Shown in pieces: positions 6,524 through 9,109 of a stretch of 35,384 bases of DNA. Both the position numbers and the translations under genes were made by a program. The notes below the pieces were generated by a model, which was not told the DNA's origin, made no database searches, and worked only from the letters and a program-made list of their open reading frames with translations. Position 1 is the first letter of the stretch, and each line of letters opens with the position of its first letter. The stretch lies in assembly GCA_947496065.1 (NCBI GenBank), contig CANMBF010000002.1, forward strand, positions 138,788-174,171, in the 5' to 3' direction. Origin of the DNA: Bacteroidota bacterium (lineage in GTDB: Bacteria; Bacteroidota; Bacteroidia; NS11-12g; UBA955).

Positions 6524-7618
6524 TTATTCTGTTACTAATTTCTTAAGTGTTGCCTTGCTTGGCAAAAACAATTTATACTGCGAGGCAAATATTTGTTTAT
6601 TATCCTTGGGCAAAGTAATTTCAACCACCGCATCCGATTTATCCTTGCAGATAATGATGCCTATCGTGGGCTTTTCAAATTTCTGTTTTATAAAACGATC
6701 GTAGTAGTTAACATACATTTGCATCTGGCCAATATCTTGATGTCTGAGTTTTCCAATTTTTAAATCTATCAAAACAAAACATTGCAATAGCCTATTGTAT
6801 AAAACAAGGTCGACATAAAAATTTTCTTCTTTGAAAGAAAATCGTACTTGCCTACCTTGAAACAAGAATCCTTTCCCCATCTCTAATAGAAAATGTTCAA
6901 TTTTGTTTATGATAGCTGTTTCTAAGTCGGTTTCTGAATAGCTAATTTTCTCGTCTAGACCTAAAAATTCCAAAACATATGGTGTCTTTAATACATCCTC
7001 AGGATTTTCTATTATCTGTCCCTTTTTTGCTAATTCTTTAACTTTACTCGGACTTTTGCTTAAGGTGAGTCGTTCAAACAAACCGCTCTCCAATTGCCTT
7101 TGTAACTCTCGAACGCTCCAATTATTTTGAATCGATTCAATTTCATAAAAAGAACGTTCATTCCCATCGTCAATTCTACTAAGTATCACATAATGCGACC
7201 ATGACAATTGAAATCGTTCTGAAAATTTTTTAAAGTAATTTTCTTGCAATCTCCGAGACACTGTCTCGGATTTTTTATCTAGCACCTGCATTGGTTTCAA
7301 TTTCCGAGACGCTGTCTCGGAAATTGAAAATGTTAGATAAAATTTTCTCATATTCTCTAAATTGTCAACCGAAAAACCCCTTCCAAACTCCTTCACCAAT
7401 GATTTACTAAGAAGCAATAGTGTTTGTTGACCGAAAGCTGCTTTTTGTTTTCCTTTTTGCTCTTGTTCAACAATCAGCTGGCCTATTTGAAAATAGGTGA
7501 AGACCATCAAACTATTCGTTTGCCTTACTATCTTTTGTCGGGCATTTTGAATCAAATCAATGGCTTGCTGAATGATTGCAATTGGATTGTCTAAGCTATC
7601 TATCTTACTATTTGCCAT
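6524..7618 (-). CDS. DUF1016/YhcG-type PDDEXK nuclease family protein
   Basis: The 364-residue product has the two-part DUF1016 layout. An N-terminal helical domain (about 10-175) has TYFQIGQLIVEQEQ, FSVDNLENMRKFY and LSWSHYVILSRI. A C-terminal PDDEXK-like domain has FYVDLVLYNRLLQCFVLIDLKIGKL with Asp270, Asp285 and Lys287 as likely metal-site residues, and GQMQMYVNYYD. The family is common in variable regions and is often linked to restriction or mobile DNA; its exact role is unsettled. Between FYLTF (93-97) and FSERFQLSWS (132-141) there is an extra stretch of about 30 residues carrying the repeat SETASRKL / SETVSRRL, encoded by two DNA palindromes 17 codons apart. The start is ATG. The gene is isolated on its transcript. 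Confidence 0.88.
   Translation of the reverse strand: MANSKIDSLDNPIAIIQQAIDLIQNARQKIVRQTNSLMVFTYFQIGQLIVEQEQKGKQKAAFGQQTLLLLSKSLVKEFGRGFSVDNLENMRKFYLTFSISETASRKLKPMQVLDKKSETVSRRLQENYFKKFSERFQLSWSHYVILSRIDDGNERSFYEIESIQNNWSVRELQRQLESGLFERLTLSKSPSKVKELAKKGQIIENPEDVLKTPYVLEFLGLDEKISYSETDLETAIINKIEHFLLEMGKGFLFQGRQVRFSFKEENFYVDLVLYNRLLQCFVLIDLKIGKLRHQDIGQMQMYVNYYDRFIKQKFEKPTIGIIICKDKSDAVVEITLPKDNKQIFASQYKLFLPSKATLKKLVTE
7252..7270. repeat. Coding palindrome, copy 1 (9-bp arms)
   Basis: TCCGAGACA and TGTCTCGGA flank a single C inside the DUF1016 gene. It encodes SETVSR on the minus strand and shares its core with the palindrome at 7295-7329. Confidence 0.85.
7295..7329. repeat. Coding palindrome, copy 2 (16-bp arms)
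   Basis: Perfect 16-bp arms (7295-7310 and 7314-7329) flank GCT inside the DUF1016 gene, with the same CCGAGAC core as copy 1. It encodes ISETASRKL. The two cores are 51 bp apart, keeping the reading frame. Confidence 0.9.
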
Positions 7619-8928: not shown

Positions 8929-8986
8929 TTTAATTATAACAAACGAACGGAAAAAAGGTTGGGAATGGATTTATTTTGAAATGTTT

Positions 8987-9032
8987 GATAGTATCATATG
9001 ATAGTATCAAAACTGGTTTATTTGATACTATC
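8987..9032. repeat. Three GATAGTATC repeats (two direct, one inverted) upstream of the VWA gene
   Basis: GATAGTATC occurs at 8987-8995 and 9000-9008, and its reverse complement GATACTATC at 9024-9032. The last two form a 13-bp inverted repeat with TGATAGTATCAAA / TTTGATACTATCA arms. No T-run follows, so it resembles an operator more than a terminator. Confidence 0.5.
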
Positions 9033-9109
9033 ACCAACCATCATTGATTAATTTCTTCATTTTTCGGATTGGATGAAAGGGTATTTTTAGTTTGACAATT
9101 AGAGCATTA

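Follow-up and report, generated by a model that had tools for sequence, protein, structure and literature searches.

Why should a nuclease gene carry two related DNA palindromes within its own reading frame? This question is raised by a 35,384-nt stretch of a Bacteroidota genome (contig CANMBF010000002.1; hereafter the window). A preliminary description of this DNA regarded the palindromes as insertions into a gene of the DUF1016 family, comparable to the palindromic elements (RPE) of Rickettsia, and suggested that the nuclease itself may recognise them, an interpretation which is partly supported by the analysis presented here. Our comparisons of related genes indicate that, very probably, each DUF1016/YhcG gene carries a palindromic site recognised by its own product.

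Proteins of this family span bacteria, archaea and phages, and a co-evolving self-site would provide a handle on what such a protein binds, where, and via which residues. No tested function for DUF1016/YhcG proteins was found in the literature covered, and the titles and abstracts concerning DUF1016, YhcG, PDC-S02 or COG4804 contained no report of an embedded self-site (most subscription journals and work available only on bioRxiv lay outside this scope).

The window gene and its two palindromes

The host of both sites is a gene of the DUF1016/YhcG nuclease family (positions 6524-7618, minus strand; 364 aa). Its product matches the Pfam domains DUF1016_N (E 6.8e-38) and YhcG_C (E 2.5e-54), both above the curated cut-offs (130.3 and 183.8 bits versus 32.8 and 32.5; PF17761 and PF06250), as well as the PADLOC profile PDC-S02 (E 5.1e-132), in which we take PDC to stand for phage defence candidate. 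No family matching the protein was present in NCBIfam.

Palindrome 1 (7295-7329; 35 bp in all, no strand assigned) is an inverted repeat whose 16-bp arms, 7295-7310 and 7314-7329, are 100% complementary and enclose a 3-nt centre. Palindrome 2 (7252-7270, no strand assigned), TCCGAGACACTGTCTCGGA, is 19 bp long, with perfect 9-bp arms and a 1-nt centre. Their centres, at 7312 and 7261, are 51 bp apart, and both palindromes keep the reading frame of the minus-strand ORF: the 27-bp units 7299-7325 and 7248-7274 encode ISETASRKL (codons 99-107) and KSETVSRRL (codons 116-124), respectively. The arm lengths, the spacing and the peptides SETASRKL and SETVSRRL given in the preliminary description were all reproduced. 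Their core, CCGAGAC-N1-3-GTCTCGG, occurs twice in the window versus never in 100 shuffles. When the codons of residues 99-128 were shuffled 20,000 times, no perfect arm exceeded 10 bp; the real stretch has arms of 11 bp (clipped at the end of the stretch; 16 in full) and 9 bp.

Both sites lie within a linker (codons 98-139; 7202-7327, minus strand) that is expanded between two predicted DNA-reading parts of the protein. The conserved Asn and Trp anchors are separated by 54 residues in the window gene versus 23 or 26 in most compact relatives, which bears out the earlier estimate of about 30 extra residues; the confidence of the protein model is lower at residues 101-120. The nearest relative found (L002; the loci compared are designated L with a number) is 98% identical to the window gene, with the second palindrome unchanged and the first differing by one base, which leaves one position unpaired. 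No third copy of the core, at up to three mismatches, was found in the 2.9-Mb assembly (96.6% complete), and RPE-like dispersion was rejected for this core. Overlapping short inverted repeats were also observed around TGATAGTATCA (8984-9033), adjoining the next gene.

The palindrome across the DUF1016/YhcG family

Loci for comparison were drawn from the genus and phylum of the window, from named genomes of many phyla including archaea (the best 80 of 580) and from viral contigs. They contained 252 matching ORFs, 244 of them with both anchors, which yielded 238 distinct genes free of N; since only the best-ranked loci were taken, genes with long inserts may be under-sampled. The stretch examined is bounded by the motifs NLxxM and W[STG]H.

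As a rule, members of the family have a palindrome at this point of the linker. Sites with 9 or more of 11 pairs complementary were present in 198 of 238 genes (83%), versus 79 of 2380 codon shuffles (3.3%) and 4 of 234 stretches taken downstream in the same ORFs. The level of at least 8 of 11 pairs was attained by 234 of 238 genes and 40 of 234 downstream stretches, but it is a weak one, as 492 of 2380 codon shuffles (20.7%) also reach it. Among the four genes failing this odd-centre test, the sites of L225 and L228 are weak; the palindromes of L132 and of the second gene of L044 are even-centred and fail for that reason. The longest perfect palindrome of the ORF falls within the linker stretch, which makes up 11.5% of the ORF, in 168 of 230 genes.

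The position of the site is largely constant. In 226 of the 234 best sites the centre coincides with a first codon position. Among compact genes whose site is in frame, it lies 18 nt before the conserved Trp codon (W-18) in 146 of 150, and likewise in 54 of 54 compact genes of a separate new set (see below), in which only in-frame centres were sought. The unit of about 27 bp has AATT-like ends, variable arms and a centre that is often CA(S)TG-like. Pairs 3-9 are complementary in 77-96% of cases (best and all sites), versus 27-58% when right arms were shuffled among genes.

The possibility that a conserved protein loop gives rise to palindromes by accident of its codons has a practically negligible probability. 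Some peptide patterns do recur (xETxSRKL, xQTLSAKL), but shuffles that keep the peptide reach the 9/11 level far more rarely than the real genes, and a peptide-driven origin was refuted on this basis. Peptides vary widely among genes while complementarity stays. The preliminary description had set an ancient conserved loop, with the DNA palindrome not preserved, against its own reading: the position is indeed ancient, but the DNA palindrome is kept while the peptide changes, and that reading was not refuted on this account. Selection of the site as DNA is thus supported by the gene comparisons.

Alternatively, selection might act on a hairpin in the mRNA controlling translation or mRNA stability, which we consider very improbable. 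Transcribed arms of 8-16 bp would form a hairpin; however, mRNA selection would favour G.T mismatches, and the 226 best in-frame sites showed no wobble bias in their pairs 2-9 (39 G.T and 59 A.C), which disfavours the hairpin. Two further observations described below also argue against it, namely the coupling of the site to residues of predicted DNA-reading helices and the presence of family-type sites in non-coding DNA beside the genes.

Genes with long linkers contain tandem units: 30 genes have 2-5 sites at the 9/11 level, a few of them probably by chance. Copies within a gene share 5.0 of 7 core bases (53 pairs) versus 2.9 between multi-site genes (2362 pairs). The insert of the window gene is such a tandem array of the family site, in two copies. 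The size of the extra stretch was correctly described, but the palindrome itself is the family rule at that place and the insert only adds copies. The postulated parallel with RPE was not supported: the site is about 27 bp long, both genomic copies reside in one gene, and insert-free genes of the family carry the palindrome at the same codon position.

Several other observations concern the arrangement of the sites. In L062 one palindrome occurs in two reading frames, with unrelated peptides, and in L047 the best site is outside the usual frame, so that DNA rather than peptide seems to be copied. Three loci (L008, L011 and L080) contain two DUF1016 genes each, with unlike sites.

Within the phylum of the window, at least 153 of the 392 genomes sampled had DUF1016 matches; one site unit is present in a gene of Wolbachia phage WO. 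DUF1016/YhcG matches were found in 4417 of 5426 E. coli genomes and covered 80% or more of yhcG in 3310 of these; a near search of E. coli with L149 gave no match. The yhcG gene of E. coli K-12 (L251:5828-6955) has three units, encoding IHQTMSGEL, IPQTPSAEF and IWQTLSAKS, which are absent from the annotated features shown. In another E. coli allele (L257:601-1713), the block that differs from K-12 spans the recognition helix and the palindromes, both flanks being nearly identical. Junctions adjoining transposase genes in L253, L260 and L254 are located inside the third palindrome of E. coli yhcG (K-12 nt 378-410), the matches ending at 406 or starting at 385, and two alleles annotated as frameshifted (L256 and L258) are devoid of 80 nt of the repeat-bearing linker.

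Co-variation of site bases and protein residues

The first coupling run included 226 genes with an in-frame centre, and later runs the 192 of these at the 9/11 level or above. Mutual information (226 genes) singled out, in the numbering of the window protein, residues 85, 88, 89, 141, 144 and 169, whose codons all lie outside the palindrome, together with columns encoded by the palindrome itself. Contingency tables of the 192 genes revealed the preferred combinations: R85 with G at pair 7 (74/76), E88 with C at pair 8 (37/39), K88 with G or T there (33/34), R89 with C or T at pair 5 (45/46), R or K144 with C at pair 4 (64/76) and K or R169 with C at pair 3 (43/46). The suggestion that the nuclease itself recognises the palindromes is strongly supported by this co-variation of palindrome bases with residues encoded elsewhere.

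The code deduced from these alignments is chemically sensible and extends beyond phylogeny. In within-cluster permutations the top columns were 141 and 169 (pair 3), 144 (pair 4), 89 (pair 5), 85 (pairs 6 and 7) and 88 (pair 8), each with 0 of 200 permutations; since many other columns also reached 0 of 200, at smaller z, the control for phylogeny is incomplete. When 513 nucleotide columns elsewhere in the gene served as controls, none scored as high, for any of the six residues, as its best palindrome column. With phylogeny controlled for, residue 154 was also coupled to pair 4 (z about 15) and may be a further contact.

The code was then used for prediction from genes less than 35% identical to the one predicted. 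Pair 3 was predicted with an accuracy of 0.97 (0.23 from the nearest relative and 0.11 from the majority base), pair 5 with 0.84 (0.42 and 0.65) and pair 7 with 0.81 (0.39 and 0.43); there was little gain for pair 6 (0.57 versus 0.51) and none over the majority base (0.48) for pair 8. Closely related genes illustrate the joint changes: A to C at pair 5 with Y89R (L188/L191, 96% identical), G to C at pair 9 with K85Q (L134/L135, 93%), and G to A at pair 3 with T141S and S169V (L024/L094, 90%). In a few close pairs, such as L172/L195, the core changes while the six residues do not.

The code, fixed beforehand, was applied to a new set of loci (L251-L341 minus L253-L256, L258-L260 and L273) comprising two other classes, around the genomes of L089 and L109, and a few others. 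After removal of 11 duplicates and 3 genes without anchors, 64 genes were left, of which the 58 with a site at 9/11 or above entered the prediction. A gene's own site ranked on average at the 94th percentile among the sites of the others; 29 of the 58 genes are at least 60% identical to a training gene, and the other 29 gave a mean percentile of 0.92. Bases were predicted correctly in 56 of 58 genes at pair 3, 47 at pair 4, 49 at pair 5, 41 at pair 7, 41 at pair 8 and 36 at pair 9. For pair 6 the prediction failed in this new set (28/58, where a constant guess gives 0.45).

With a code derived from single-site genes, the 70 sites of 30 multi-site genes had a mean percentile of 0.85 for their own proteins. 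Some array sites of L042, L039, L048 and L050 misfit their own protein, as does the best site of one L080 gene.

Structural models (mean pLDDT 81 for the window protein and 84 for the compact L103) place these residues on predicted helices. Residues 85, 88 and 89 are found on one helix, residues 141 and 144 on a helix starting at the Trp, and residue 169 begins a later helix, with the residues encoded by the site located in the linker between the first two. In the window gene, model and coupling together define a predicted recognition helix at residues 84-98 (D85, E88, N89; pairs 5-9; 7325-7369), the helix 140-146, WSHYVIL (S141, V144; pairs 3 and 4; 7181-7201), and the helix 169-177, with V169 at its start (pair 3; 7088-7114), all on the minus strand. 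The sequence comparisons support a reading of the palindrome by the N-terminal domain as symmetric half-sites, the first helix being matched to the outer bases (pairs 5-9) and the later helices, via residues 141, 144 and 169, to the inner ones (pairs 3-4). Both copies in the window gene appear to fit its own combination D85 E88 N89 S141 V144 V169, for CCGAGACA.

Site copies beyond the linker and possible roles

The search for the core in other genes, envisaged in the preliminary description, located the window's 17-bp core in 3 of 395 genomes of the phylum, always inside a DUF1016 gene. A second core was present at 9 places in 8 of 296 genomes: one in a DUF1016 gene, seven, flanked by AATT-like sequence, in small ORFs or non-coding DNA, and one in an unrelated ORF lacking such flanks. 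This distribution weighs against the self-site reading. The single place of a third core is inside a DUF1016 gene. Family-type palindromes within 100 nt of DUF1016 ORF ends numbered 5 in 24 kb (21 per 100 kb), versus 8 in 920 kb (about 1 per 100 kb, i.e. about 20 times sparser) more than 1 kb away; those of L103, L114, L041, L080 and L050 lie 19-36 nt from the ORF ends.

With the palindrome flanking L060 left out of the scores, flanking sites fit the code of the neighbouring gene (at or above the 90th percentile) in L103 (4 of 6), L114, L040 and L116, and misfit it in L041, L080, L050 and L110. Upstream sites that match the code of their own gene were confined to L116 and L114, which weighs against feedback as the use. 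A second site at the promoter was rejected as a general rule: 1.0 Mb of flanks of 106 genes contained only 8 further matches at up to three mismatches (0.2 expected), and two of these are mutual matches between the pair of DUF1016 genes in L108.

Six family-type palindromes directly downstream of L103 (L103:6990-7540), in DNA without a clear gene, four of them fitting the L103 code, form a cluster that looks like a centromere-type arrangement. In L264, L265, L266, L268 and L271 one palindrome occurs repeatedly just 3' of a gene ending in ..QYRLTEKGKHLI; L273 (12 kb around L268 and L271) also contains abortive-infection-like genes.

It is conceivable, though improbable, that the unit of about 27 bp is a mobile palindromic element which spreads among DUF1016 genes and their flanks in the manner of RPE or REP, with the protein perhaps acting as its carrier or mover. 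Such spread would fit the arrays of up to five good units, the other-frame copy in L062, the out-of-frame best site in L047, the density of palindromes near ORF ends and the occurrence of one core in non-coding DNA of several genomes. However, the window genome has two copies only, both in the gene, the W-18 position is fixed in insert-free genes, and the residue-base coupling needs recognition by the encoded protein.

If self-recognition is accepted, the use of the site has to be considered. We tentatively favour a feedback function, although our confidence in it falls just short of an even chance. The protein would bind its own site as a dimer and, sitting on its own gene, would lower the transcription of the latter; extra copies of the site would strengthen this feedback. 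Such control would restrain a potentially harmful nuclease of a family matching PDC-S02, and would travel with a horizontally moving, possibly anti-phage gene.

The main rival explanation, possible but in our opinion unlikely, shares self-recognition and regards the site as a cleavage target: the nuclease would destroy further copies of its element that enter the cell or, upon some trigger, the resident copy, and specificities would diversify so that different members can share a cell. In its favour is the conservation of the nuclease core. The PD-(D/E)XK domain of the window protein (residues 208-357; 6548-6997, minus strand; Pfam and the fold of the L103 model) has the catalytic D, D/E and K (D270, D285 and K287), and the catalytic residues are intact in all 177 genes with a covering alignment (61 genes were uncovered). 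Cleavage as the purpose would also agree with the match of the family to PDC-S02, with the several paralogues in many genomes and with the diversity of specificities: 122 different cores occur in 192 genes, and of the 25 gene pairs with at least 90% identity, 13 have unlike cores. This frequent change fits either orthogonality between coexisting members or neutral co-drift. On the other hand, such a gene would need protection from cleavage by its own product, and no partner common to the loci emerged; a type I restriction system as a constant companion was rejected, as an HsdM-like ORF was near only 14 of 90 loci. Moreover, the variability of the key residues is unexceptional (ranks 12-88 of 217), which leaves positive selection on them unsupported.

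Whether feedback or cleavage is the use, the natural protein-DNA specificity pairs of this family are many and can serve the study of recognition codes, and why a nuclease would read its own gene becomes directly testable in E. coli K-12. For the broader view, belief and doubt are evenly matched in our assessment: this may be a nuclease family built on self-reference, with the target in its own gene, protein and target co-evolving by a readable code, and the gene being regulator and target at once. Together with the linker arrays and the non-coding satellites, it might then represent a new class of self-marking element, with specificity groups resembling plasmid incompatibility groups.

Some features of the site recall known systems. 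Autoregulated repressors may have operators lying inside coding sequence, but the DUF1016 site differs in that an entire nuclease family has it, at a single codon position. The C-terminal domain of the L103 model has the fold of EndoMS/NucS (5gke: Z 11.5, 113 residues aligned, rmsd 3.1), whose N-terminal domain is unlike that of DUF1016 and for which we know of no embedded site. With Foldseek alone it was mainly the nuclease half that was matched, and sequence searches of the PDB gave no significant relatives (best E 0.31 and 0.085). RPE, elements of about 100-150 nt, are inserted in intergenic regions, RNAs and genes, according to the part of the source consulted (PMC4316617). They resemble the DUF1016 units as palindromes within unbroken reading frames; however, the latter are about 27 bp, bound to one gene family and co-varying with the protein, and the window core is limited to one gene whereas RPE are dispersed.

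ParB-parS and Noc-NBS likewise combine dimeric DNA-binding domains with short palindromes, and B. subtilis spo0J itself contains a parS. A possible likeness of DUF1016 proteins to these domains comes from the alignment (VIA-align) of the N-terminal domain of the L103 model, which matched 7nfu (Z 8.2, rmsd 3.1, 99 residues) and 6y93 (Z 7.8, rmsd 3.3, 103/105 residues); at least nine ParB/Noc entries had Z 6.7-8.2 among the 50 matches listed, values which helical folds can reach by chance. In the part of the published account consulted, helices a4, a6 and a8 of ParB touch parS, and residue 173 reads base 1 and residue 201 base 6, Noc numbering being different (PMC7383237). As far as this account extends, the first helix reads outer bases and later helices inner ones, an arrangement that in DUF1016 is suggested by co-variation only. 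The DUF1016 proteins differ in having a nuclease domain in place of the ParB/Srx CTPase domain (a Pfam scan at E <=0.001 gave only DUF1016_N and YhcG_C), and in possessing a site that lies inside their own gene and differs from gene to gene.
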